DNA of 64,000 nucleotides, taken from Thermosulfurimonas sp. F29. Its GTDB lineage: Bacteria; Desulfobacterota; Thermodesulfobacteria; Thermodesulfobacteriales; Thermodesulfobacteriaceae. How positions within the stretch are numbered: the stretch's first letter is position 1; each line of letters opens with the position of its first letter. This document shows positions 4,714 through 50,092 of this stretch, in pieces. The notes under the pieces are model-generated. The model saw nothing but the letters and a program-made list of their open reading frames with translations. It searched no databases and was not told where the DNA came from. The translations under genes were made by a program, and so were the position numbers. The stretch spans positions 186,001 to 250,000 of the forward strand of contig NZ_JAIFYA010000002.1 in the NCBI RefSeq assembly GCF_019688735.1, read 5' to 3'.

Positions 4714-7700
4714 TTTTCGAACCAATAGATTATCCGCCCCCGCAGTCCCTCCCCGGGAGAAACCAGAAGGGGCGGGGAAGGGGAAGGCGTGCCCACGAAC
4801 CACCGGGTGGCTCTTCCGCCTTTTAAGGGAAAGTTCTCCGGTTTGATTTCTATTTTCTCTATGTTTCCCCGAGAGAGCTGCAGAAAGAGTGTGCCCACGG
4901 CCCGGGTGATGGAGGAGCCGTTGTCGCATTCCATGGCTAACACCCTGGTCCTTCCTCCGAATCCGCAAACATCCGCGGTGGGTTCCATGGTGACGAATAA
5001 GGAAATGTTGTCTTTGAAGAGGGGATCGGTGATAGAACGCTCCTTACCGTAGGTGATTCCTCCCACGGTTTCTCCGAGATCCAGAGTTACGGACCACTCG
5101 CCATTTAATTCCGTAGAGGCGGCCCAGTTATTTGTGGGATCCAGTTTAATTCCTCCCAGAGTTTCCCTTCCCTCGCCAGATGGATCCTCTTTATAAAACC
5201 AACGGCCTGTAGCGTAGTAAATCCACGGTGCCCCTTTACACTTTCCCGCAAGTACCCGTGTAGTTACGGGACCTATATCGGTTTTGTAAACCTGAAAAGT
5301 CCATTCTAATGAATTAGACGAGTTCACCACCGCCGCCGCAACAATTCCCTTCCAGCTTTGGGTGGAGTTGTCCCAGTAGGTCAGTCCAAAGGGGACGAGA
5401 TCCGTGTTTCCGTCCTCGTTGTAGTCCAGGCCGGAGGTAAAAAGGCGGCCTCCGAAGCCCTTGGTCGAAGAACTCAATCCCAGTGGAGAGTTTAAGTCTA
5501 TTTCGTATATTTTGGGTTTGGGATTAATATCTTCTGTATAAGCCACGGTGTAATTGTCGGGATCCAGCTCCAAAACGAAGGCCCTCGGCGGCAGAGCAGC
5601 ACTTCCGTTGTAGCTGGTAGGTCCGGAAAGGAACATTACAAAGGGTGTACCTTGATAATAAATCAGGGCCGGACCGGAGAGGGTGAAGCCCAGATCCGGA
5701 TCGGCGAATTCCCACAGAAATTTGGGATCTTCAGGATCGGTTACATCCAGGGCGAAGTAGGAGGAAAGCCCCACACAGGAATTAGAGTCCGGTGAATATC
5801 TGCCCGGGCTCGGACAGGTGTCTTCCGGGGGGATAACACAATTAGTGGCATTATCACACCCGACCGCTCCTCCCAGGCGCATTCCTCCGATGAGGATCAG
5901 TTTCTCCGGGCGCCCATCCCGATTTCGATCCACCGGGTAAAGGAAGGGTTCCAGGTCTACATAGTAAAGGTGACAGTATCCCGGATCGGCAAGGTAGCGC
6001 AGGTAGGGAAGGGCGTTTTTCGGAGCAAAGGCCCAGAGCTCTTCACCCAGACGATTCGTCGTACAAAGAATATTCGTATCGTCGCAGATTCTGGCTAGCT
6101 GTCCCTTCCCCAGGCCGTCGTAGCGTTTCTTTCCCAGTCTAAAGGCATGGAGCAGGCCGTCGTTGGCCCCCACATAGACCACGGAATAACCGGGATAGTC
6201 CACCACGAGGGGGGTGGAATATACTATGTCTCCCAGTTTCCAGGTCCTGTTTTCGGTGCCCACCGTAAAGGTCCGGTTTCTCCAGCCGGGCTGATCCTTT
6301 CCGTAGATGTAGTCTATAAGGTCCACCACCGCCAGACCGTTTTCTGAAAAAGTCACCCCTCGAAAACTTTCCCCGTTCTCGTCAACATAACCGTCTTTGT
6401 CCTCGTCTCCTAAAAGGGAATAATCCCTTTGGGATAGGTCCACCAGTTCGTAAGTTGCATTAGTAAGGTCTACCGGGGTTTCGGGAAAGAGGGAATTCAA
6501 GGCGGCGGGGGTGTAGATCTTCCTCTCGTCGGCCCGGGTCTGGGAGAGTTTCCTTCCGGCCTCCCAGACCTTGACGGGGGAGTTCTCTCCGGTGAGGGTG
6601 TTAAGATGGAGGTAGGTCTCTTTTGGGGTGCGGGAGGCCTCGGTGCCGTTGCAGGCACTTTCGTAGGCCTTTATGGTGGTTTCTCCGGTGGCATTTTCTA
6701 CGACGAAATGTAAGATGTAGTCTCCACCGGGCTCTCCCGTGGGAGAACACAGGTCCAGAATTTTGTTTTCCACCGTGTCCTCTCGGATGTTCCTGTTCGT
6801 GCCGAAGGCGTATAGCCAAAAGACATTCACGAACCCCGCCCAGGTAAGATCACTCTCCGGCACCTTCGGATAGAACACGGCCTGTATCAGGTTTACTCCC
6901 ACTTCACGCTTCTGGGTCTGAGCCGACACCGAAGTGCCGGCCGAGGCCCTGGCGAGGATGCTGCGTAGAAAACGGAGTAGATAGTTCTTTATCTGGATGG
7001 CCGTGGAGGCCTTGAGAAATGTGTCCGGCTGACCGTCCCCGTTTTGATCCCAATCCGGAGAGGAAGAGGGCAGAGGAGTACAAGCGCTGCCTTTACCACA
7101 GTTGGGTTCACTACAACAATCATCCATACGACAGGTGTCTTGTGGATATCCTGTAAGATCGTCGGGCCAGTCTCCGTGATTCAGATCAAAGGATCCGTAC
7201 ATGGCTACATTTTTGAGGGACTGTTCTCCGGTACCCCCTAAAAAGAGTCCCAGGGCGTAAACCTGCTGGACGCGGATGTCGGCTCCGTTCAAAGTCCGGA
7301 GCACATCATGGTGCATGCGGTAGGCCGGAACCACCGGATCCGCGGAATTGTCTTCATAGCCCGTATCTATACTACAGGATGGAGTATTCCACTGACCATC
7401 GGAGGCCAGGATGACGAAATTTTTGGCACAGGGCACCGCGGTACAATTAGTGTGGTCGTACGCGCAAAAGTACTGCGGGTCCTTGTAGGTTCCGGGGGCG
7501 AGGTCGAAGTCGTTGGCATAGTTATGGTCGTCCTGTTGTTTAAAGTAATCGTAGGCCTCCCACATGGCCGGGCCTGTACTTGTTCTTCCATCAGGAGATA
7601 TGTAATTTATGAACCGTATAAGGTGGGTATAAGGATGGTCCGGGTCGGCGTTCCCGGGCTGGCCAAAACCGGTGTAGGGATAATCTCCCAAATAAATCTT

Positions 7701-35471: not shown

Positions 35472-35480
35472 TTCCGTGAG

Positions 35481-35575
35481 GGCCGGGAGAGGGGGCTGGT
35501 GCTCCCCTGGGGCTGCAAACCCCGTGGGCCCCCTTGAAAGGGGGGGGCTGGCCGGTTCGATTCCGGCCCCGGCCT
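35481..35575 (+). tRNA. selC-like tRNA with cysteine anticodon GCA and long variable arm
   Basis: 95 nt that fold as a selenocysteine-type tRNA. Acceptor: GGCCGGG with CCCGGCC. D-arm: 6-bp stem GGGGGC/GCUCCC with a 4-nt loop UGGU, as in bacterial tRNA-Sec. Anticodon arm: UGGGG/CCCCG with loop CUGCAAA, anticodon GCA. Variable region: 26 nt, stem CCCCCUU/GGGGGGG around GAAA. T-arm: GCCGG/CCGGC with loop UUCGAUU. The discriminator is U35575, a cysteine identity base. Alternatively G35480-U35575 pairs as an eighth acceptor pair, making G35576 the discriminator as in tRNA-Sec (8+5 helix). CCA is not encoded. Ordinary tRNA-Cys has neither a long variable arm nor a 6-bp D-stem. The anticodon reads UGC/UGU, not UGA. 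Confidence 0.85.
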
Positions 35576-35604
35576 GGAAACTCTTCGGTGATGGAGGCAT
35601 TACC

Positions 35605-36864
35605 ATGGATCGCGAAGAGTTATGGCAGATCCTGGGGCTGGATCTTGAAGCCCACCGGAGACTCCTTGAGGCTCTCGGCCCCCTTTACGAAGAAATCTAT
35701 CTCTCCCGGGAGAATCGGCCCCAGGGTATGGCGTATTTTGACTCCGTAGTAGTGGATATCCACGGAGCGCGGGTGGCGGAGCTCCTGCAAATTCGTGAAA
35801 GCGGCAACCCTGTGGTGGGGACCTTCTGTGTGTTCGTGCCGGAGGAAATCATCTGGGCCGCCGGAGGGGCGTGCGTGGGCCTCTGCGCCGGAGTGGAGGT
35901 GGCCCCCGAAAGGGTAGATAAGGTCCTACCCCGGAATCTGTGTCCCCTCATCAAGGCTTTCTTCGGCTTCAAGCTGGCCCGTCTCTGCCCCTACATGGAG
36001 GTCTGCCACTTTCTCGTGGGTGAAACCACCTGCGACGGCAAGAAAAAAGCCTACGAGATCTTTGACCGTTACAAGCCAATTTATGTCATGCAGGTTCCGC
36101 ACAAAAAAGACTTCGCCAGCTTGGAACTCTGGATCAAAGGAGTCCGAGATTTTGCACTCTACATAGAAGGAGTTTCTGGAAAACCCATTTCTACCGAGGA
36201 TCTCCGGGAGGCCATCGAACTTATAAATCGAAGACGCGAGGCCCTTAATCGGCTAAACCGTTTACGTTGCCACGATCCACCGCCTATTTCAGGACGGGAC
36301 GCCCTTCTCATCAATCAACTGGCTTTCTTCGACGACCCCGAAAGATTCACCGTTCGCTTAAACGAACTCTGCGACGAACTGGAGGAGAGGGTCCGGGCCG
36401 GGGAGGGAGTGTGTCCATCGGGAACCACCAGAATAGTGCTCTCCGGATGTCCCATGGCTATTCCTAACTGGAAGGTACCTTACCTCGTGGAATCCACGGG
36501 AGCCGTGATCGTAGCGGAGGAATCCTGTGTAGGCACGCGCCACACTAGAGAACTGGTGCAGGTTTCGGAAAACTCGAAAGAAGGGCTCCTCAGGGCCCTT
36601 GCCGAAAGGTACTTTCGGATTGACTGCGCCATCTTTACCCCCAATCCGGAGCGTCGCGCAAACCTCGATCGGATGGTAAGGGAATTTTCCGCTCACGGTA
36701 TCATCCATTATGCTCTGAAGTTCTGTGATCCCTACACCATCGAGGCCTATCAGATAGAAGAGGGTGCGCCGGTTCCGGTCCTGAAGATCGAAACCGATTA
36801 CAGCCAGGAGGACCGGGAACAGCTTCGCACCCGCATCGAGGCCTTTCTGGAGATATTGAGGTGA
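35605..36864 (+). CDS. 2-hydroxyacyl-CoA dehydratase-like protein; candidate double-cubane cluster protein
   Basis: 419 residues of the HgdB/BcrB/FldB family. Likely cluster cysteines sit in conserved spots: GETTCDGKKKAYE, LSGCPMAIPNW and LKFCDPYTIEAY, with more Cys in AGGACVGLCAG and RLCPYMEVC. A single subunit gene of this type paired with one activator gene, instead of the alpha/beta pair of true dehydratases, is the pattern of double-cubane cluster proteins (DCCP), which carry an [8Fe-9S] cluster and reduce small molecules such as acetylene. ATG 35605 has GGAGG 7 nt upstream; the frame is open back through the tRNA but that part is not protein. The 29 bp between tRNA and start suggest one transcript. 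Function is inferred; a true 2-hydroxyacyl-CoA dehydratase is the alternative. Confidence 0.75.
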   Translation: MDREELWQILGLDLEAHRRLLEALGPLYEEIYLSRENRPQGMAYFDSVVVDIHGARVAELLQIRESGNPVVGTFCVFVPEEIIWAAGGACVGLCAGVEVAPERVDKVLPRNLCPLIKAFFGFKLARLCPYMEVCHFLVGETTCDGKKKAYEIFDRYKPIYVMQVPHKKDFASLELWIKGVRDFALYIEGVSGKPISTEDLREAIELINRRREALNRLNRLRCHDPPPISGRDALLINQLAFFDDPERFTVRLNELCDELEERVRAGEGVCPSGTTRIVLSGCPMAIPNWKVPYLVESTGAVIVAEESCVGTRHTRELVQVSENSKEGLLRALAERYFRIDCAIFTPNPERRANLDRMVREFSAHGIIHYALKFCDPYTIEAYQIEEGAPVPVLKIETDYSQEDREQLRTRIEAFLEILR

Positions 36865-37607
36865 GGGTGGCGGGTCTGGACATAGGTTCGCGAACCGTAA
36901 AACTGGTCATAGTAGATGAGTACGGAGTTATTGAGCGACGGTGTGTTGAAACCTCGGCCCGCCTGGGGGAACAACTTCATGCCCTCCTCTCCGGTCTCTC
37001 CTTCGACCGGCTGATCGCCACCGGTTACGGCCGTAATCTGGCCGGTAAACTCTTCGGGGCCGAAACCCTTACCGAAATCAGGGCCCACGCTATGGGCGTG
37101 AGAAGCCTTTTCCCCGAGGTGAGAACCGTTCTCGACATCGGAGGACAGGATAGTAAAGCTATACTTCTGGATCCCGAGGGGCGGATAGTAAAATTCGAGA
37201 TGAATGACCGCTGTGCTGCCGGGACGGGGCGTTTCCTGGAGGTCATGGCCTTAACTCTGGGCGTAAGACTTGAAGAGCTGGCCGAACTGGCCCTTAAAGC
37301 GGATCAGGCGGCAAGTATCAGTGCCCTGTGTACGGTCTTTGCCGAAAGCGAGGTGGTGGGCCTCATCGGACGGGGGGAGAAGCCGGAGCGAATCGCCCGC
37401 GGGATCATTTGCTCCATTGTTAAGCGTTCCCTGAGCCTTCTCAATCGTGTATCTTCGGTCCCCCCTCTGGTTTTCACCGGTGGAGTGGCCCGTAACCGGG
37501 CCATGTTGAAAATTCTAGAGGAGAAATTGGGGTTTCCGATCCTGGTTCCCGAAGACCCGCAGATCACGGGTGCCCTGGGAGCGGCCCTTTACGGAATGAA
37601 AGGTTAA
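36861..37607 (+). CDS. ATP-dependent activator/reductase of the adjacent dehydratase-like protein (HgdC/DCCPR-like)
   Basis: 248 residues of the ASKHA (acetate/sugar kinase, Hsp70, actin) fold. The phosphate motifs are GLDIGSRTVKLVIVD and DIGGQDSKAI, and the adenosine motif is FTGGVARNRAM. Two cysteines that bridge a [4Fe-4S] cluster across the homodimer are in NDRCAAGTGRF and SALCTVFAESEV. The protein uses ATP to push low-potential electrons into its partner. The start GTG overlaps the partner gene stop (GTGA). Confidence 0.9.
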   Translation: MRVAGLDIGSRTVKLVIVDEYGVIERRCVETSARLGEQLHALLSGLSFDRLIATGYGRNLAGKLFGAETLTEIRAHAMGVRSLFPEVRTVLDIGGQDSKAILLDPEGRIVKFEMNDRCAAGTGRFLEVMALTLGVRLEELAELALKADQAASISALCTVFAESEVVGLIGRGEKPERIARGIICSIVKRSLSLLNRVSSVPPLVFTGGVARNRAMLKILEEKLGFPILVPEDPQITGALGAALYGMKG

Positions 37608-38522: not shown

Positions 38523-38861
38523 TTAAAGGGCCTCCTCACCCCTTTCGCCGGAGCGGATCCTTAGGGCCTCCAGCACCGGATAGACGAAGATTTTTCCGTC
38601 TCCGATCTCTCCGGTGCGGGCCGCCCCGGCTATAGCTTGCAATAATTGTTCCACTTCTTCATCTCTGCAGACGATCCGCAACTCCAGCTTGGGCAGAAGA
38701 TCCACCCTGAATTCCCGTCCCCGGAACTGTTCCACCAGTCCGGCCTGTCGGCCGTGCCCCTCCACCTGGTAGACCGTGACTCCGGGGTGTCCGATCCTTT
38801 CCAGGGCCTCCAGAACCTCCTGCAGTTTTTCCGGTCTGATAATGGCTCGTATTTCTCTCAT
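38523..38861 (-). CDS. glnK: PII signal protein GlnK, without the uridylylation tyrosine
   Basis: 112 residues. PII features are REIRAIIRPEKLQEVLEAL at the start and ARTGEIGDGKIFVYPV. The T-loop reads GLVEQFRGREFRVDLLPKL: the tyrosine that GlnD modifies in proteobacterial PII (Tyr51) is Phe here, as is Tyr46. Control is therefore probably by ATP/ADP/2-oxoglutarate binding only. It starts 3 bp after amt and should block the ammonium channel when nitrogen is plentiful. Confidence 0.93.
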   Translation of the reverse strand: MREIRAIIRPEKLQEVLEALERIGHPGVTVYQVEGHGRQAGLVEQFRGREFRVDLLPKLELRIVCRDEEVEQLLQAIAGAARTGEIGDGKIFVYPVLEALRIRSGERGEEAL

Positions 38862-38864
38862 GTT

Positions 38865-40244
38865 TTACCTCCTTACGGTGTAGAATTCGGGATAGGCTGG
38901 GGTACCGTGCTCGAAGAGATCGAGTCCCTGGATCTCTTCCCGCGGCGAGACCCGGATTCCGATAATGACATCGAGCAATTTGAAAAGGACGAGCCCCATA
39001 CCGAAGGCCCAGGCGAATAGGGCCACCGCGCCTATCAGCTGGGCGATGAGCTGTCCGGCACCGCCGCCGTAGAGAAGCCCCTTCACAAAGGGTGGTTCGA
39101 TGGCATAGTTTCCGTAGGTACCGTCGGCGAAAAGCCCCACGGCGATGAGTCCCCAGAGGCCGTTGAAGCCGTGCACCGGAACGGCTCCCACCGGGTCGTC
39201 CACCTTTATGGCCTCAAGAAAATAGACTCCGGCTACCAGAATGACTCCCGCTACGATACCGATCACCACCGCGGCCCAGGCCTCAACCCAGGCGCACGGA
39301 GCGGTAATGGCCACCAGACCCGCAAGCACCCCGTTTAAGGCCATACCCAGGTCAAATTTCCTGGTCTTGGCCAGGATTAGGAGCAGGGCCGTGAGAGAGG
39401 CCGCGGAGGCGGCCAGGGTGGTATTCACCGCTATCACCGAGATGCGCAGGTGGTGTGCGGAAAAGGTGGATCCGGGATTGAAGCCGTACCAGCCGAACCA
39501 GAGGATGAAGACTCCCAGTGCGGCAAGCGGAATGTTGTGCCCGGGGATGGCCCGGGGTTTGCCGTTTTTGTCAAACTTTCCGAAACGCGGTCCGAGTACT
39601 ATGGCCCCGGCAAGTCCCACCAGGCCTCCCACCGCGTGTACCACTCCCGAGCCCGCAAAGTCCAGGTGTCCGAGACCGAAGGGGAGCTTCGAAAGCCAGC
39701 CCCCGCCCCAGACCCAGTGGGCGTAAACCGGATAGATGAAAGCGGTTATGGCCACGGAATAGAGAAGATAGGCCTGAAATTTGATGCGTTCGGCCACCGC
39801 TCCGGAGACGATGGTGGCCGCGGTGGCGGCGAAGACCATCTGCCAGAAAAAGGAGAGATAATTTCCCACATCGTAACCCTTGCCGGCCAGGAAAAAACCC
39901 GTGGTCCCGATAAGCCCCCTCCAGTCGGCTCCGGTGATGAGGGCGTAACCCACGGCCCAGAAGGCCAGGGACCCCACCACAAAATCCATGAGATTCTTGG
40001 TGAGGAGGTTGGTGGCATTTTTGGCCCGGCAGAAGCCGGCCTCCACCAGGGCAAAACCCGCCTGCATGAACATCACCAGAAAGCCGCACACCAGCACCCA
40101 CACATAGTCCACCGCCAGGCCGGGATTGGCCTTGAGGGTCGTGGCCCCCGTGGGATCCCCGGCCATGGCTACCCCCGATCCTAGCAAAAACACCGCCGAT
40201 AAGATCGGCCCCACTCTTTTACCCGGAAAAAACCTGCCACTCAT
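38865..40244 (-). CDS. amt: Ammonium transporter
   Basis: 459 residues, with a cleavable signal peptide (ending GVAMAGDP) and eleven membrane helices. Typical Amt segments are GFALVEAGFCRAKNATNLL, FWQMVFAATAATIVSGAVAER, YPVYAHWVWGGGWL and DFAGSGVVHAVGG, with the twin pore His residues. Coupled to glnK downstream. A -24/-12 sequence lies 37 bp upstream, so it is probably under NifA/sigma-54 control. Confidence 0.96.
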   Translation of the reverse strand: MSGRFFPGKRVGPILSAVFLLGSGVAMAGDPTGATTLKANPGLAVDYVWVLVCGFLVMFMQAGFALVEAGFCRAKNATNLLTKNLMDFVVGSLAFWAVGYALITGADWRGLIGTTGFFLAGKGYDVGNYLSFFWQMVFAATAATIVSGAVAERIKFQAYLLYSVAITAFIYPVYAHWVWGGGWLSKLPFGLGHLDFAGSGVVHAVGGLVGLAGAIVLGPRFGKFDKNGKPRAIPGHNIPLAALGVFILWFGWYGFNPGSTFSAHHLRISVIAVNTTLAASAASLTALLLILAKTRKFDLGMALNGVLAGLVAITAPCAWVEAWAAVVIGIVAGVILVAGVYFLEAIKVDDPVGAVPVHGFNGLWGLIAVGLFADGTYGNYAIEPPFVKGLLYGGGAGQLIAQLIGAVALFAWAFGMGLVLFKLLDVIIGIRVSPREEIQGLDLFEHGTPAYPEFYTVRR

Positions 40245-40492: not shown

Positions 40493-41767
40493 TTACAAAG
40501 CTCTAAGGCGCCAGACCGGAGCCGAAAGAATGCGCACCAGATTATTCACGAAATTGATAAAGCCTTTATAACCGGTATAGGGGCCGCGTCTGCGCTCCTG
40601 AGGGAAGGAGAGGGTTGGAAAACCGAGTTTTACCGCTCGCCACTGCTCCCGGGCGTTGGTGATCACGAGGTCGGGCTTAAGCGCTAAAAGCGCCTTTTCA
40701 AACTCGTCGTCTCCGGGATCGTCGGTAAGAAAACCGGAAAAAGGGGCGGCCTCCCGGTGATCTTCAGGACTCCCGAAGACCGAAGCCGCCCCTGTGACCT
40801 CAAACCCAAGTTCTCTTAGCATCCTCCCAAGGGGCCCGAGTCTTCCGGCCCCGAGCACCACGAGCACCCTTTTCCCGGAGAAGAGTTTGAGCCAGGACCT
40901 GATCTCCCGAAAGGCCCGCGCCTCTTCTTCCCGGATGACCGCCTCCACCTTTGTTGAAGATAGGCCCAGGACCTCTCCCACCTTGCGGAGGGAAGCCCCC
41001 ACGGCCGAAAGCCCGTAAAAGGAGACCTTTAGGTAAGGAAGGCCGAAGCGCTCCTTTAAGCCCAGGGCAAACTCCCGGGCCGTTGAACCGCAGAAAAGGA
41101 GATTCAGATGAGCCCGGGAAAGACGCTCTATCTCCGGAAAACTGGTATCTCCGGTAAGGACCGTGTGGACCTTAATGCCGAGTTTCTCAAGAAGTCGCTT
41201 TATTTCCCGCGCCTCTCCGGCCACATTGTACTCTCCGATAAGATTTACCGTGGGGTGTTCGGCCCTGGGTGAGGATCGAACCAGGTTAAGCAGACTCCGG
41301 TAGGCCACGGCGTGGCCCCCGGCCTGGCTCTTTCCGGAAAACCCCGGGCAGTCCACCACGACGACCCTGCGACCTGAGTATCTCTCAACCTCGCGGGCAA
41401 GGCCCGTAAGATCCTCTCCGATAAGCCCCGTCGTGCAGGTGGCATACAGGAAGGCCCCGCGGGCGGAGGGGCGGAGGGAGAAGGCCTCAAGGATGGCCCT
41501 TCTCAATTTTTCAAGGCCTCCGAAGATCACCTCCCTGGCCGAAAGCGCGGTCCCGTAAAGATCTTTGGCCTCGCCCCGGACCATAGAGCCATAGTACCCG
41601 CAGCCCACGGGGCCATGCACCAGATGCACCGCCTCCCGGATCGGCCCGAGCACATATCGAGCCCCGAAATAAACGCAGCTTCGCTGGGTCATGCCCCCGG
41701 GCTCGCTTGCAAGCCCGCAGGGCTTAATCCGAAGAGGCACACAGCCGTAAGCGCCGCAGACATCCAT
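40493..41767 (-). CDS. nifE: Nitrogenase cofactor scaffold protein NifE-like
   Basis: 424 residues of the NifD/K/E/N family. Features include the Cys positions QRSCVYFGARYVLGP, LVHGPVGCGYYG and LYATCTTGLIGEDL, and VNLIGEYNVAGE. It lacks the FeMo-co-binding His context of NifD and fits NifE, which carries the FeMo-co precursor. The normal partner NifN is not encoded next to it, so the scaffold may be a homodimer, or NifN lies elsewhere. Starts 16 bp after nifK. Confidence 0.82.
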   Translation of the reverse strand: MDVCGAYGCVPLRIKPCGLASEPGGMTQRSCVYFGARYVLGPIREAVHLVHGPVGCGYYGSMVRGEAKDLYGTALSAREVIFGGLEKLRRAILEAFSLRPSARGAFLYATCTTGLIGEDLTGLAREVERYSGRRVVVVDCPGFSGKSQAGGHAVAYRSLLNLVRSSPRAEHPTVNLIGEYNVAGEAREIKRLLEKLGIKVHTVLTGDTSFPEIERLSRAHLNLLFCGSTAREFALGLKERFGLPYLKVSFYGLSAVGASLRKVGEVLGLSSTKVEAVIREEEARAFREIRSWLKLFSGKRVLVVLGAGRLGPLGRMLRELGFEVTGAASVFGSPEDHREAAPFSGFLTDDPGDDEFEKALLALKPDLVITNAREQWRAVKLGFPTLSFPQERRRGPYTGYKGFINFVNNLVRILSAPVWRLRAL

Positions 41768-41783
41768 TTTTTAACCTCAAACC

Positions 41784-43268
41784 TTACTGGTGGGTGCGGT
41801 CATCGGGATAGTGGTGGTCAAGGAGAGTATTCACGATAAGGGAGAGGAAATACTCTCCTCCCCGGTAACCCACTATCGCCCGCCGTTGATAGCCCACCCG
41901 ATCGTAAACCGGGAAACCGAACCGCACAAGCGGCACCCTTATCTCCCGCGAGATATTCACGCAGCGGGAGTGTCCGAGAATGAGATCCGGGGGATCGTGC
42001 TTTAAAGCGTATTCCCATTCAAACTGATCGCTTCCGTTCATGAGAATCGGTTTGTGGTTGTATTCCTCGCAGACGGAGAGAACCTCCCCCTCGGCCGAGG
42101 CACTCCTGGTGCCCACCAGAATGTAGGTGGGGATCATACCGAGTTCGCAGACGAAGCGTGTGGCTGCGGCCACGAAATCCGGATCTCCGGCCAGCGCTAC
42201 CCGTTTCATCATGGTATAGTGCAGGGTATCGGCCATAGCATCAAGGAGGATGCCCCTCTCCCAACGTACGGCTTCCGGAATGGGCCGTCCCGAGACCTCA
42301 CTTATGGCTTTAAGTAGTCGGTCGGTGTTGCCCACCCCCACGGGCATGGGAAGCACAAGGGCCGGTACCTTGTGGCGACGGGAAAGCCATTTCGCCCCGG
42401 CTCCTCCGGCATCAGGCGAAAGCGCGAAGATGGCCCTGGCGTCGCCTGCCCGAACGAATTCCTCCACCCGTGTGCCTCCCGGGGGATAATAGGGGATCCT
42501 CTCGGGCATGCCCACCAGCGGGCAGTCCAGGGTGTCACTTATGTCAAAGAGGATATGATAGGAGATCCCCATGAGCTCAAAGAGGTGTTTCAGCTCCCGC
42601 AGGTCTCCGGGCATGAGGAATCCGGGGATGAAGTACAGGTCTTCGGAAGGTTGACCGGTCTTGCGCGAGAGGGCCTTGAGGAACTCGCGTGCGGCCCGGT
42701 TGTAGCCCTCCACATGTGATCCGGCAAAGCTCGGGGTGTTCACCGTCACGAACTTCGTGAGGTCGAGTATTTCCGGTCCGAATTCTTCCTCCATAAGCTC
42801 CAGGGCCTCGGCGAGAAAGCTCTGGATGTCGTCTCCTATGACTTCGCTTGAACAGGTGGTGACGATGGCAATGAGTTCCGGCCTGTAGCGGCAGACGAGG
42901 TTCCGCACCCCGCGAATGAGGTTTTTACGGCCGCCGAAGACGGCCGCGTCCTCGTGAAAGGAGGCGCTGGCGATGGATGCCGGCTCCCGGAAGATACGGG
43001 CGAAGGTGTAGCGCACATAGGTGGTGCACCCCTGGGCTCCCTGCACGAAGGGAATGGCCCGGTGCACCCCCAGTGTGGCCCACATGGCCCCGAGGGGCAT
43101 GCAGGTGCGGCTGGGATCAATGCAGACCGAACGGTTGGTCGCCGGTACCAGCTCCGGCGGTGGGGGGATGTATTCCGGCGTAAGTGGCCTCTTTTCTATG
43201 TGAAGCTCTTTGTAGGTGATGCCCTCGACCGGAATCTCTGAAACCCGATTTATTTTCTGGTTGATCAT
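41784..43268 (-). CDS. nifK: Nitrogenase molybdenum-iron protein beta chain
   Basis: 494 residues. The three P-cluster cysteines of the beta chain are intact: RTCMPLGAMWATLG, QGAQGCTTYVRY and IVTTCSSEVIGDDI. EDAAVFGGRKNL and NTPSFAGSHVEGY are standard NifK segments. Style is that of the methanogen/Firmicute/Nif groups with NifI control. No vnfG/anfG-type delta subunit gene is present, so a molybdenum enzyme is most likely. It begins 18 bp after nifD. Confidence 0.93.
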   Translation of the reverse strand: MINQKINRVSEIPVEGITYKELHIEKRPLTPEYIPPPPELVPATNRSVCIDPSRTCMPLGAMWATLGVHRAIPFVQGAQGCTTYVRYTFARIFREPASIASASFHEDAAVFGGRKNLIRGVRNLVCRYRPELIAIVTTCSSEVIGDDIQSFLAEALELMEEEFGPEILDLTKFVTVNTPSFAGSHVEGYNRAAREFLKALSRKTGQPSEDLYFIPGFLMPGDLRELKHLFELMGISYHILFDISDTLDCPLVGMPERIPYYPPGGTRVEEFVRAGDARAIFALSPDAGGAGAKWLSRRHKVPALVLPMPVGVGNTDRLLKAISEVSGRPIPEAVRWERGILLDAMADTLHYTMMKRVALAGDPDFVAAATRFVCELGMIPTYILVGTRSASAEGEVLSVCEEYNHKPILMNGSDQFEWEYALKHDPPDLILGHSRCVNISREIRVPLVRFGFPVYDRVGYQRRAIVGYRGGEYFLSLIVNTLLDHHYPDDRTHQ

Positions 43269-43286: not shown

Positions 43287-44717
43287 TTAAATTTCGGTGC
43301 GGGAAAGCCGCCACACCGGGGCGCAAACGGCCTGGTAAATATCCCGGGCAAAGTTCACGAAGCCCCGAAAACCGGCGTAGGGCCCCTTTTCGTAAGAGTG
43401 GGAGTTAAGCGTTGGCACACCGAACTTGCGCACGAGATACTTCTCCTTGAGACCGGTGAGAAAAAGATCGGGCCTGCGGGTCTCTATCATTTCTTCGATC
43501 TCGAACTCGTTGGGATTGTCTATGACGAGAAGACCGGGTTTTGCGCGTTCGTTTATCTTGGCGTAGTCCTCCCTGTGGCCGAAGGTGGTCATGACCGCCA
43601 CCACCTCCATTCCCAGTTCCTCCATGACTTTGATCCAGTGCCACACCCGCGGGGCCCCCACATAGATGGCTACCCGCTTTCCGGAAAGCCTTTCCCGATA
43701 CCAAGAAAGGGCCGCCTCCACCGCCGCGGTTTCCTCTTCAATGATCTCTTCAGCCCGCCGTTTCATCTTTTCTTCCCCGAACCAGGCAGCCACATCCCAC
43801 AGGGCCTTAGCGGTCTGCGAAAGTCCAAAAAGACTCACCCGCACAAAGGGCACCTCAAAGCCCTGCTTGATGAGCTCGGCAATATAGGTGGCTGAACGCT
43901 GGCAGTGCACGATGTTGAGCCTGGCGTCCGGAAGGCGGAAGAGGTCTGAAAGCCTTGCGTTTCCGGTAAAGACATTGAGTATCCTCAGGCCCAGCTTCTC
44001 GAAGAGGGGGACCACCACGGCTTCGTCCCAGTCAATGTTGTATTCCCCGATCAGGTTCACATCGTAGGAGGTCCTCTCCTCCTCGGGGAGTACCACTTCC
44101 GGGTGTTTCTTTCGGTACTCTATGAGCCACTTGTAGAATTGGAAATTAAACTCGTGGTGTCCTTTAGACTGGGAGACTCCGCAGAAGCCCGGGGAGGCGC
44201 AGGCAAAGACGGGTTTTCCGACTTCGGCCGAGACCTCACGGGCCACCTGCTCTATATCGTCGCCGATAAGGGCGGTGGAGCAGGTGTTGTATATGACGGC
44301 CCCTCGGGCTCCGGGATTGAGCCGAAAGGCCTCAAGAAGGGCCCTTTTTAATTTTTCCGCTCCGCCGAAGATAATGTCCTGTTCGGTCATGGCCGTGGTG
44401 TAGCAGTGGCGGCGATGGTGGGCCTCGTTCTCTAACACCCCGGGGGCGGCCCAGCCGTAAAGATCCCCCAGATGCCGGCGCGTGCCCCAGGTGTAGTAGG
44501 CACAGCCCACCGGAGCATGTACCATCTGAATCACATCCACAATCGGTCCGCCCACGACCCCGCGGGCACCGGCAAAAGCTCACCCGCGCTCGGTGAGATC
44601 GCCCGGCACCGTGGGGGCGTTGCACCTGGGTAGCACCTTCTTATCTTCATCAACGAGGTAAATGTGTTCGGTCCTTTCGGGGATGCAGGCGTTACATTTC
44701 ATCGGATAGTAACCCAT
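43287..44717 (-). CDS. nifD: Nitrogenase molybdenum-iron protein alpha chain, with in-frame UGA at a P-cluster cysteine position
   Basis: 476 codons if UGA is read through. The ATG at 44717 (GGAGG upstream) opens MGYYPMKCNACIPERTEHIY, a normal NifD start. At codon 46 (44582-44580) the frame has TGA in TERG-x-AFAGARGVVGGP; NifD proteins have Cys here, alpha-Cys62 of Azotobacter, a P-cluster ligand. The frame then continues without damage: APVGC (second ligand), YNTCSTALIGDD (third), VHCQRSATY (FeMo-co Cys) and LNSHSYEKGPYAGF (FeMo-co His). A SECIS-like hairpin follows the UGA. The intact remainder and the conserved operon argue against a dead gene. Readings are selenocysteine, cysteine at UGA, recent nonsense mutation or a sequencing error (one base from TGC). 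Confidence 0.9.
44544..44571 (-). promoter_or_regulatory. SECIS-like hairpin downstream of the nifD UGA
   Basis: In the mRNA the hairpin starts 8 nt after the UGA. The lower stem is CGGU/ACCG, with a 2-nt GG bulge on the 3' side. The upper stem is GCCCGC/GUGGGC (one G-U pair), and the apical loop is GGGGUC, beginning 18 nt after the UGA. In Escherichia coli fdhF the loop (AGGUCU) begins 17 nt after the UGA, and a G and U in the loop are needed for SelB. Spacing, loop size and the GGUC core match. High GC makes chance hairpins possible. Confidence 0.6.
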
Positions 44718-44733: not shown

Positions 44734-45567
44734 TTAGGATGAGAGGGCGGCGCAGAAGGCCGCCTGCGGAAGGTCCCCTTCGCCGGGGACCCCTGCGGCG
44801 TCGGCCCGGCAGCGTCGGCAAGAGAGGAATTGCGGCATGAAACGCGAAGCCAGCCTGCGGGCCCAGCGAAGTTCCGTCTCCGTGGGCGGTCGCCGATGGC
44901 GGAAATGCGCAAGCGGAATGAGAGGTATGATGTTCATGAGATGAGCTCCAGCCTCCCATACCCGCCGGGCGATTTCGGCCACCTCCACATCGTTTATTCC
45001 CGGAACAAGCACGGTGTTGACCTTGACCCTTAAGCCCGCTTCCGCCGCCGCGGCAATGCCTTCCAACTGCCGGGAAAGGAGAAACTCCGAGGCTTCCCTG
45101 CCGGAGAGCCTTTTTCCCCGGTAGCGCACCCAGAGGTAAACTTTTTCGGCGGTTTCCGGGGTTGCGGCGTTTACCGTGACCGTAAGAAATCGCACTCCCA
45201 GATAAACCAGATCTGCAAGTTTTTCTTTAAGGAGAAGTCCGTTGGTGGAGACGCAGAATTTAAGTTGCGGGAAGCTTTCCCGCACGCGGGATAGGGCCTC
45301 GAAAGTTTCCTCGTTGGCCAGCGGATCCCCGGGACCGGCCACACCTACGACTTCTATACGGGGCTCAAGGGTAAGTACCGTTTCCACATAGGCCGGGGCC
45401 TCTTCCGGGGAAATCACCCTGCGGGAGGCCCCGGGACGATTTTCGCTTACGCAGGCGTAGCGCCGGTCGCAGTAGGCGCACCGGACATTGCATCGCGGAG
45501 CCACCGGAAGGTGAAGCCTTCCCACGAGCCGGTGCGCCTCCTCATCAAAACAGGGATGTCTTATCAT
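44734..45567 (-). CDS. nifB: Nitrogenase cofactor biosynthesis radical SAM protein NifB
   Basis: 277 residues, the short NifB form without the C-terminal NafY-like domain. The radical SAM triad is RCNVRCAYCDR, the start HPCFDEEAH is diagnostic of NifB, and further cluster cysteines are near the C-terminus (LSCRRCRADAAG). It fuses two [4Fe-4S] clusters with a carbide to make NifB-co. Its place between nifI2 and nifD, 16 bp before nifD, is less usual than a separate locus. Confidence 0.92.
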   Translation of the reverse strand: MIRHPCFDEEAHRLVGRLHLPVAPRCNVRCAYCDRRYACVSENRPGASRRVISPEEAPAYVETVLTLEPRIEVVGVAGPGDPLANEETFEALSRVRESFPQLKFCVSTNGLLLKEKLADLVYLGVRFLTVTVNAATPETAEKVYLWVRYRGKRLSGREASEFLLSRQLEGIAAAAEAGLRVKVNTVLVPGINDVEVAEIARRVWEAGAHLMNIIPLIPLAHFRHRRPPTETELRWARRLASRFMPQFLSCRRCRADAAGVPGEGDLPQAAFCAALSS

Positions 45568-45591: not shown

Positions 45592-45969
45592 TTAAAAAAG
45601 AGCGGAAAGGCCCGTCTCACCGGTGCGCACTCTCAGGACCTCCTCCACCGGGAGCACGAAGATCTTGCCGTCTCCGTGCTCACCGGTCTGATTTACCCGG
45701 ATGATTCTCTCCACCACCCTGGGGACCATGGCCTCCGGCACCACCACCGAAAGGAGCCTTTTAGGTATAAAGGCGTAAGAGGTGGTCTCGAGCTTCTCGG
45801 CCACCTCAGGGCTTACCCGATAGGCGAGCTCCTTGAGCCTTCCTCCCTGTTTCCCCCGGCCGAGGACCTTAAAGGCCGTAAAGGAGGAAAACCCCATCTC
45901 CTCAAGGGCCCTTTTGGTAGAAAGCATTTTGTTGGGTCTCACGATGGCGATTATTTCCTTAAGGATCAT
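45592..45969 (-). CDS. nifI2: Nitrogenase PII-like regulator NifI2
   Basis: 125 residues, PII fold with the longer T-loop of NifI2 (GRGKQGGRLKELAYRVSPEV...TSYAFIPKRLLSVVV) and GEHGDGKIFVLPVEEV. Together with NifI1 it inhibits the nitrogenase MoFe protein post-translationally when 2-oxoglutarate is low. Located 10 bp after nifI1, the arrangement known from methanogens and sulfate reducers. Confidence 0.92.
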   Translation of the reverse strand: MILKEIIAIVRPNKMLSTKRALEEMGFSSFTAFKVLGRGKQGGRLKELAYRVSPEVAEKLETTSYAFIPKRLLSVVVPEAMVPRVVERIIRVNQTGEHGDGKIFVLPVEEVLRVRTGETGLSALF

Positions 45970-45979
45970 GATTCACCTC

Positions 45980-46297
45980 CTAGAGTTCGGCCTTTCCGGT
46001 GCGGATGGTGTAGGCCTCCTCCACCGGGGAGACAAATATCTTGCCGTCTCCGAAGCGCCCGGTACGGGCGGCCTCTATCACGATGCTGCAGACCCGTTTG
46101 ACCTCCTCGTCCGGCACCACCAGGAGAAGGAGGCTTTTGGGAAGCTCGTCATAAACCACCTCCCCCACGGCAAGACCCCCCTGCTTTCCGCGCCCCACCA
46201 CATCCACCCGGGTGAGCGCGAGGAATCCCTCCCGGGCCAGGGCCTCCACCACCTCTTCCGTCTTTTCCGGCCTTATTACGGCTTTGATCATTTTCAT
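45980..46297 (-). CDS. nifI1: Nitrogenase PII-like regulator NifI1
   Basis: 105 residues, PII family: MIKAVIRPEKTEEVVEALAR, GRGKQGGLAVGEVVYDELPK (T-loop) and ARTGRFGDGKIFVSPVEEAY. It follows nifH by 29 bp and works with NifI2 as a heteromer that binds the MoFe protein. The ATG has GGAGG 6 nt before it. Confidence 0.92.
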   Translation of the reverse strand: MKMIKAVIRPEKTEEVVEALAREGFLALTRVDVVGRGKQGGLAVGEVVYDELPKSLLLLVVPDEEVKRVCSIVIEAARTGRFGDGKIFVSPVEEAYTIRTGKAEL

Positions 46298-46326: not shown

Positions 46327-47190
<864 letters not shown>

Positions 47191-47197
47191 TCAGGGA

Positions 47198-47213
47198 AGC
47201 AAGGAGGGTGCCA
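47198..47213 (-). promoter_or_regulatory. Sigma-54 promoter of nifH operon
   Basis: Minus strand TGGCAC, CCTCC, TTGCT: a perfect match to TGGCAC-N5-TTGCW. Start of transcription near 47186, about 25 bp before the nifH ATG. NifA encoded at 48500 is the expected activator. Confidence 0.88.
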
Positions 47214-47328: not shown

Positions 47329-47344
47329 TGGAACGGTTTTTGCT
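47329..47344 (+). promoter_or_regulatory. Sigma-54 promoter of nifV
   Basis: TGGAAC, GGTTT, TTGCT: one mismatch in the -24 half. The predicted start of transcription (about 47355) is only some 4 bases from the nifV ATG, so the message would be nearly leaderless. It diverges from the nifH promoter across 115 bp. Confidence 0.7.
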
Positions 47345-47358
47345 TTGAATTCCAGGTG

Positions 47359-48465
47359 ATGCGACTCCTGGACACTACCCTGAGAGAGGGAATTCAACGG
47401 TGGGGAGTATATTTCCCTCTCGGGGTAAGAAGGGAGATCGTGAAGCGCCTTGCGGATATCGGGGTGGAGGAGGTCGAACTCGGGGTGGTGGGAGAGGAGA
47501 AGTTGCGGGTTCTGATTCTTGCGGCCCGGAGGGTGTGCCCCAAGGCGCGATTCAGCATCTGGTTGCGATTGCGGAAGGAAGACATAGAGCGGGCCGCGAG
47601 GCTTCCGGAGGTGGGGTTTAACCTGGGGGTGCCGGTCTCCGGGATACAGCTTGAGCGCAGGTTGCGGCTCACCCCGGAGGCCCTCCTTAAAAGAACGGAG
47701 GAGATGGTGGCGCTGGCTGCCTGCTACTCTCCCTGCGTAACCCTTGGGCTTGAGGACGCCTCCCGGGCTGACAGGACCTTTATTTTTCAAATTTGTAGAG
47801 TGGCTATTACGGCCGGGGCCAGACGGATAAGGATCTCGGATACCTTGGGCCTTCTCAATCCCCTGGAGGTGGCGGACCTAATACGGGATCTCAAAAAGAC
47901 CTTCCCCGGAGCCGAGGTGGGGTTTCACGGGCACAACGACTTCGGCCTGGCCACGGCCAACGCCGTCTCGGCCCTTGCCGCCGGAGCGTCCTGGGTGGAT
48001 GTAAGTATTCTGGGGCTTGGCGAGAGGGCCGGCATCGCCTCCCTTGAAGAGGTTATGGCCTATCTCTATTTCCGAAAAGGCCGAAAACATTACCGCATCG
48101 AGCTTCTCCCGAAACTTTCCCATTATGTGGCCTGGCAGGCCGGAGAGATTATTCCGGAATTCAGACCCGTGGTGGGCCGGAAACTTTTTTACTGCGAAAG
48201 CGGCCTCCATGTGGAAGGACTTAAAAAGGCTCCGGAACTCTACGAACCCTTCCCTCCGGAAACCCTCGGGCTTAAGAGGGAACTATCTCTCGGAGCCAAA
48301 AGCGGGCGGGCGGCGCTTGCGGCCCTGCTTGAGGAGTGGAATCTAGATCTTCCCGTAGAAAGAATCGAAACTCTGGTAAGAGAAATCCGCAAACTCTCCT
48401 CCAGACTGGGCCGACCGTTGAGTAAACAGGAGGTGAAGAAACTGATCCGGACTATAATCGTCTAA
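47359..48465 (+). CDS. nifV: Homocitrate synthase NifV-like
   Basis: 368 residues. The DRE-TIM metallolyase start [15 protein letters not shown], the [15 protein letters not shown] metal site (HxH) and [19 protein letters not shown] identify the isopropylmalate/homocitrate synthase family. With nif context it most likely makes the homocitrate of FeMo-co. ATG 47359 follows AGGTG. It is followed after 34 bp by nifA, probably one transcript. Confidence 0.85.
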
Positions 48466-48499: not shown

Positions 48500-50092
48500 A
48501 TGAAGACACTGGAAGCCCTGAAGCTGGAGGTCCTTTACGCCGCCCACGAGCTTATAGGACAGGCTCTGGAACTTGAGAGGGCTCTGCGCCGGATCCTCCG
48601 GATACTCGGGGAGAAACTGGACATGAAGAGGGCCTCTATTGTGCTCTGGGACGAGGCATCGGAACGGCTCAAGATCAAGGCCTCCTACGGTCTGAGCCCG
48701 GAGGAGGAGGCCCAGGGAATTTACGAGATCGGGGAGGGTGTGACCGGGAGGGTTTTTGTCTCCGGGGAACCCTGTGTGGTCTCGGATGTGAGCCGGGAGC
48801 CGCTCTTTTTGAACCGCACCGGGGCCCGTAGTCTCGCCAAGGAAGTGATCTCCTTTATTGCGGTGCCCATCCGGATCGAAAACGAAATTCTGGGTGTTCT
48901 ATGGGTAGACCGGCTTTTCGGGTATCAGGTGGCCCTGGAGGAGGATGTAAAGTTCCTGGAGGTGATGGCCTTTCTCATCGCTCAATTCATAAAACTCAAA
49001 AAGAAAGTGGAAGCCAGAGAGATCCGTCTCCGGGAGGAAAATCTGGATTTGAGGGATGAGCTGGAAGCCCGTTTCAGTGAATTTATGTATGGTTCCCGCA
49101 GTCCGAGGATGAGGGAGGTCCTAAGTCTGGTCAGACAGGTGGCTCCCACCCGGGCTACGGTGCTGCTTCTCGGGGAGTCCGGAACCGGAAAGACCCTTAC
49201 AGCCAGACTTATCCATGAACTCAGTCCCCGACGAGGGAAACCCTTTGTTAAGGTAAACTGCGCGGCCCTTCCGGAGAATCTCCTTGAGGCCGAGCTCTTT
49301 GGCTACGAGAAGGGGGCCTTTACCGGAGCGGTGGCAAGCAAACCCGGACGCTTTGAAATAGCCGACGGTGGAACGATATTCCTGGACGAGATCGCGGAAT
49401 TGCCCCTGCCGCTTCAGGGCAAACTCCTGCGTTTCATCCAGGACCGGGAATTTGAACGCCTGGGAAGTACCCGGACCCGGCGGGTGGATGTGCGCATCAT
49501 TGCGGCCACCAACCGGGATCTGGAAAAACTCGTTCGGGAGGGAACCTTCCGTGAGGATCTATTTTATCGCCTCAATGTCTTTCCCATCTACATTCCCCCG
49601 CTTCGTGAGCGCCGGGAAGATCTTCCGGGCCTCATCAAGTTTATTCTACGCCGTATAGAGCAAAATTACGGCCGGAGACTCGTCCTTTCCCCCGAGGCCC
49701 TGCGGAGACTTGTAGAATACCCATGGCCGGGGAATGTACGGGAGCTGGAAAATGTGCTGGAGAGACTTTTTATCGTGTGCGAGAGGAACCCCGTGCCCGA
49801 GGAAATGGTTTCCCGGCTTTTAGATCGTGAAGAAAAATCCGGAGAAGATCCCTCTGCGAAGGGGCCTTTTTTTCCTCCCGAAAGGGAACCGTCTCCGGAG
49901 GAGATCCTGGAGACGCTTCGAAGGAACGATTTTATTATAGCCCGCGCGGCCCGGGAGATGGGTCTTTCTTTCCGGCAACTAAGATATCGAATCCGGAAAC
50001 TGGGACTGGAGAAGTACTTTTCCGTTCGGAAGGGAAGACCACCGGCCGGAAAAACGAAAGGGCTATCCCCAAAAGACAAAGGGGGCGGGTAA
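48500..50092 (+). CDS. nifA: Nif-specific sigma-54 activator NifA
   Basis: 530 residues: N-terminal GAF domain (about 20-165, with [18 protein letters not shown]), AAA+ domain (Walker A GESGTGKT, sigma-54 loop [11 protein letters not shown], Walker [11 protein letters not shown]) and a C-terminal helix-turn-helix ([20 protein letters not shown]). Domain order equals NifA. It lacks the Cys-x4-Cys oxygen-sensing linker of rhizobial NifA. It should drive the sigma-54 promoters before nifH, nifV and amt. Confidence 0.88.

Follow-up and report, generated by a model that had tools for sequence, protein, structure and literature searches.

Probable selenocysteine at a P-cluster ligand position of the Group III-type nitrogenase alpha subunit of Thermosulfurimonas sp. 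F29

Selenocysteine nitrogenases reported from sequence

Nitrogenase is among the most studied of metalloenzymes, and sequence-based reports of a natural selenium-ligated version go back to 2013. In that year, selenocysteine (Sec) was described at alpha-62 in the Group III NifD of Thermodesulfatator indicus, Desulfotomaculum kuznetsovii, and Ca. Desulforudis audaxviator, and a covariation of alpha-Sec62 with Ala at position 92 of the beta subunit was published (Howard et al., 2013; PMC3760896). The codon is printed there as 'amber TAG', evidently a slip, as every case encountered here is TGA. The same authors pointed out that terminal selenolate ligands barely shift the potential of model Fe-S compounds (PMC3760896). 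More recently, a 2026 review listed a selenoprotein family named 'Nitrogenase component I subunit alpha' with the model TIGR01862, the motif RxU, and the accession WP_153802866.1 (PMC13188914). A literature search, with most subscription journals outside its reach, found no bench work on a Sec-type nitrogenase and, for Thermosulfurimonas sp. F29, no data on protein, selenium, or growth. The genome paper of the relative T. dismutans covers the nif genes of that organism without mention of selenium; it asserts diazotrophy in its discussion, growth on N2 not having been analysed in the original description.

The DNA analysed here, referred to as the window, is the whole stretch of 64,000 nucleotides from Thermosulfurimonas sp. 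F29. Its nifD resembles the published alpha-Sec62 genes in having a UGA at codon 46, a bacterial SECIS (bSECIS), Sec genes in the genome, a Group III-type alpha chain, no accompanying nifN, and beta-Ala92; Thermodesulfatator, the genus of T. indicus, is represented among its nearest NifD relatives. It differs from that set in coming from another organism, and in the wider set compared here beta-Ala92 occurs in Cys-type relatives as well. With the entry of the 2026 review it shares the family model and the Arg-x-Sec motif (R-G-U in the window), whereas WP_153802866.1 is given there as a GenBank annotation only (PMC13188914). The Cys-type Group III NifD of PDB 9spz has the same ligand set and N-terminal motif, TERG[C/U]xFAGARGVV, but its residue 46 is Cys, and Ser stands in the place of beta-92. 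Judged by sequence, the NifD of the window is a further member of the published alpha-Sec62 Group III family. The preliminary description of this DNA knew of no described selenocysteine nitrogenase, a statement contradicted by the three species of 2013 (PMC3760896). What the sequence comparisons add is a wider distribution, the selective maintenance of the SECIS, the repeated exchange of Sec and Cys, and evidence for beta-Ala92 as a trait of a clade.

The nifD gene and its neighbourhood

The nifD frame runs on the minus strand from an ATG at 44717 to a TAA at 43287, and its sole internal stop is the TGA of codon 46 (44582-44580), flanked as TERG-*-AFAGARGVV. With Cys read at the TGA, the product scores 522.9 bits against the NCBI model of the nitrogenase component I alpha chain (TIGR01862). 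In an end-to-end alignment, codon 46 falls on Cys46 in the alpha chain of PDB 9spz, the closest solved Group III-like protein; this is the position of the invariant P-cluster ligand Cys numbered alpha-62 by Howard et al. (2013; PMC3760896). The remaining P-cluster ligand positions are filled by two Cys in NifD and three Cys in NifK. NifD also has the Cys and the His of the cofactor site. The preliminary description is thereby upheld in its claims of an intact frame with one TGA at codon 46, of the placement of this TGA at the first alpha-chain P-cluster Cys, and of the presence of all other cluster ligands in both subunits. This ligand set, together with nifH and nifB, is as expected from sequence of a functional nitrogenase. 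The features of the region are as follows.

38523-38861, minus strand: PII gene beside amt
38865..40244, minus strand: amt, ammonium transporter
40493..41767, minus strand: nifE-like gene (PF00148 match)
41784..43268, minus strand: nifK, beta subunit; P-cluster cysteines present, beta-Ala92 equivalent at about 43035-43037
43287..44717, minus strand: nifD, nitrogenase component I alpha subunit, Group III type; 476 codons when read through the TGA, TIGR01862 score above the cut-off
44580..44582, minus strand: TGA codon 46 of nifD, probably read as selenocysteine (alpha-62, Azotobacter numbering); 18 distinct NifD share this TGA, the others having TGC/TGT (Cys)
44734..45567, minus strand: nifB, short radical-SAM form (TIGR01290 284.9 bits, below its cut-off)
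45592..45969, minus strand: nifI2, PII-like regulator (PII families; nifI name from its position between nifH and nifD)
45980..46297, minus strand: nifI1, PII-like regulator (PII families; nifI name from position)
46327..47160, minus strand: nifH (TIGR01287 459.9 bits, above cut-off)
47198..47213, minus strand: sigma-54 promoter-like site TGGCACCCTCCTTGCT upstream of nifH (exact match)
47329..47344, plus strand: sigma-54 promoter-like site upstream of the nifV-like gene (one mismatch)
47356..48465, plus strand: nifV-like homocitrate synthase (311 bits, below cut-off)
48500..50092, plus strand: nifA-type sigma-54 activator (504.7 bits, just under the cut-off of 528.85)

Sites resembling sigma-54 promoters, with at most one mismatch, number seven in the window against 1.17 expected, and one of them lies upstream of amt. 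A complete nif operon with regulators and sigma-54 promoters had been described initially; the PII-like and nifA genes and the sigma-54-like sites agree with this, but nifN does not belong to the set. No nifN was found in the genome, where the PF00148 proteins are three only (NifD, NifK, and NifE), and the cluster is complete only in the nifN-less style of Group III.

The NifK of the window has the sequence QGAQGC, and hence beta-Ala92. Ala occupies this place in all Sec-type NifK and also in 14 Cys-type relatives, Ser being confined to an outer group of five (L096-L100); because of this sharing, beta-Ala92 is, on the sequences compared, a trait of the clade that contains Sec rather than a Sec-specific partner. 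Its covariation was consequently rejected as support for Sec, being non-specific, although Ala at this position may have been permissive.

Reading of the UGA codon

Decoding of UGA by SelB with the aid of a bSECIS hairpin is established. The limits given for such hairpins are a loop of 3-9 nt, an upper stem of at least 4 bp, a G in the first two loop positions, and a spacing of 16-37 nt (PMC13188914). The nifD of the window has a predicted hairpin within these limits (-16.8 kcal/mol), with its apical loop starting 19 nt after the UGA.

44544..44571, minus strand: predicted bacterial SECIS hairpin; 7-bp upper stem, GGGU apical loop, short lower stem
44550..44564, minus strand: SECIS core CGC GGG GTC GTG GGC, codons +6 to +10 counted from the TGA; identical in all 18 Sec-type nifD

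The folding criterion is weak by itself: the hairpin reaches only z = -1.3 against shuffles, and many Cys-type genes fold a passing hairpin too. The decisive test is a comparison of silent sites among relatives. The nearest 11 NifD loci, found in a search of genome contigs, have TGA at the codon in nine cases and TGT in two. Among 395 sampled genomes of the phylum to which the organism belongs, Thermodesulfobacteriota, 18 gave a NifD match at E <= 1e-100, seven of them with one TGA; the corresponding numbers for 398 genomes of Bacillota, the phylum of Desulforadius, were 22 matches (E <= 1e-130) and again seven. Removal of duplicates left 18 distinct Sec-type and 19 Cys-type sequences, the former still including the near-copies L012/L022, L013/L026, and L015/L016. 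The Sec-type NifD span both phyla with a lowest pairwise protein identity of 60%, and in every Sec-type gene found the TGA stands exactly at the metal-ligand Cys codon. When the test was restricted to codons that have at least four synonyms and encode the same amino acid in every Sec-type gene, five of seven in the SECIS region were frozen to a single codon as against none of 105 elsewhere in nifD (Fisher p = 1.6e-7). This frozen run encodes Arg-Gly-Val-Val-Gly and forms the upper stem and loop of the hairpin, the core of which is without variation across the Sec-type genes. In the 19 Cys-type genes the same codons are not frozen, with four to six synonyms each. Kinship cannot account for such a contrast within one gene because all of its columns have one common tree. 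The pattern argues for strong selection on the SECIS in both phyla and for Sec as a real and maintained trait.

The genome, with a completeness of 99.95%, encodes the machinery that such decoding would employ. Family searches identified selA (606 bits), selB (375 bits), and selD (364 bits) along with a selC with a UCA anticodon (83.9 bits). The selD gene has one in-frame TGA of its own (L051, G000:C3:42811-43743), and its product, selenophosphate synthetase, is probably itself a selenoprotein. The preliminary description had proposed searching for these four genes and aligning the NifD of relatives at the codon; all four were found, and the alignment returned TGA in 18 distinct NifD and TGC or TGT in the Cys-type ones.

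One base separates the TGA from TGC or TGT, and an error of sequencing, or a recent nonsense mutation as nifD decays, might be entertained as its source. This reading is refuted, and merits virtually no credence: the same TGA followed by the same frozen hairpin codons recurs in the 18 distinct sequences, which come from independently sequenced isolates and metagenome-assembled genomes of two phyla and have an otherwise intact frame. The initial argument that chance would scarcely place a nonsense mutation at this codon is borne out by that recurrence. No more probable is an altered genetic code that gives UGA the meaning of Trp or Cys throughout, with no SECIS needed, despite the continuation of the nifD frame past the UGA. 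Of the 47 coding-like ORFs in the window that reach or exceed about 150 codons, 15 have TGA as their stop; the RF2 gene prfB is present (522 bits), the tRNA-Trp has the anticodon CCA, and selC is the sole tRNA found with a UCA anticodon. On these grounds an altered code was rejected: the code is the standard one, and any recoding is necessarily local. A scan of the window for further genes with TGA readthrough gave no candidate, being so strict that nifD itself was also missed. An in-frame TAA in prfB was dropped as an oddity, as it resembles the usual programmed frameshift site.

An insertion of Cys at codon 46 by a suppressor tRNA, at least when selenium is scarce, would follow what has been proposed for selC* tRNA-Cys (UCA) of Desulfobacterales. 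As cited in reviews, Mukai et al. (2017) proposed Cys insertion at UGA for selC*-type tRNAs with a UCA anticodon, and the window does contain a selC*-like tRNA-Cys, 9 kb from nifD. That copy, however, has a GCA anticodon, which reads UGC and UGU rather than UGA, and the genome has a standard selC with UCA, making this route quite improbable. Insertion of Sec is strongly favoured because the TGA is conserved, the SECIS codons are frozen, the Sec machinery is complete, and other homologs have Cys, and the original proposal of selenocysteine at the P-cluster Cys is supported on the same grounds; alpha-Sec62 was also arrived at independently for three other species (Howard et al., 2013). The nifD of the window is thus very probably a selenoprotein gene. 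SelB with Sec-tRNA(Sec) would bind the hairpin just 3' of the UGA, the ribosome would read codon 46 as Sec, and the resulting NifD would have Sec in place of Cys at alpha-62, its selenolate ligating one iron of the P-cluster. Termination at the UGA would yield a peptide of 45 residues, some of which may be made.

Exchange of Sec and Cys and the possible role of selenium

A tree of NifD computed without the Sec column requires at least six changes between Sec and Cys (bootstrap range 5-7). The sister of the window sequence, L027, is of the Cys type and is nested within Sec-type sequences with support of 100/97, a placement that points to replacement of Sec by Cys. Two further Cys-type nifD, L021 from Thermodesulfobacteriales (6001-7263) and L084 from Bacillota, have the SECIS sequence with the exception of one change, the same silent G-to-A that breaks a stem pair. 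Given the codon use of each gene, such a match has a chance of 0.03 and 0.02, respectively, and these sequences are probable, though not proven, remnants of a SECIS whose Sec codon has been lost, one in each phylum. The return to Cys would not be due to a lost Sec machinery because the Cys-type genomes tested keep selC. An identical hairpin in two phyla suits a single origin followed by losses, possibly with lateral transfer.

With Cys and Sec forms interleaved on the tree, Sec appears dispensable, and its recurrent substitution by Cys speaks against its being strictly required. Selenium may serve the chemistry of the enzyme, its repair once oxidized, or a control of NifD synthesis that depends on selenium. 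The last of these was suggested by Howard et al. (PMC3760896), and in its fullest form Sec decoding would chiefly cap or adjust NifD production in step with selenium status, the selenolate having no chemical role. The UGA does lie early in the gene and Cys does work in close relatives, but any early codon could provide the same control and in every Sec-type gene found the UGA is at the metal-ligand Cys, so that this account is considered unlikely. With somewhat less than even confidence, the selenolate at alpha-62 may instead alter the working of the P-cluster, be it the redox potential, protonation, or the rate of oxidation-linked rearrangement, and may have been selected in hot, anaerobic, selenium-replete habitats. 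The repeated exchange with Cys suggests tuning, for instance a quicker reassembly, an effect on redox or radical behaviour, or a checkpoint in translation. If Sec is indeed inserted, near-identical natural enzymes (the window versus L027, L029 versus L021, and L087 versus L084) would constitute matched Sec/Cys pairs, permitting the role of a P-cluster ligand to be tested without engineering.

Some observations on tRNA genes were made in passing. The tRNA-Cys at 35479-35576 on the plus strand has a GCA anticodon, a long variable arm, and an 8-bp acceptor stem; it scores over the cut-off of the tRNA-Sec family and belongs to the selC* tRNA-Cys type, which has been reported from Thermodesulfobacteria. 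The genome has two other tRNA-Cys genes, so that this one is an extra copy, and it adjoins genes for a double-cubane-cluster reductase and its activator (35479-37607, plus strand). The L021 genome likewise has selC* beside double-cubane-cluster reductase/activator genes, with the order reversed (L067, 1-1593). T. dismutans has a comparable tRNA-like sequence, which ARAGORN did not call, some 6 kb away from nifD, and another genome (G130, locus L074), the NifD of which is of the Cys type, has a second UCA-anticodon Sec/Cys-like tRNA next to its standard selC.
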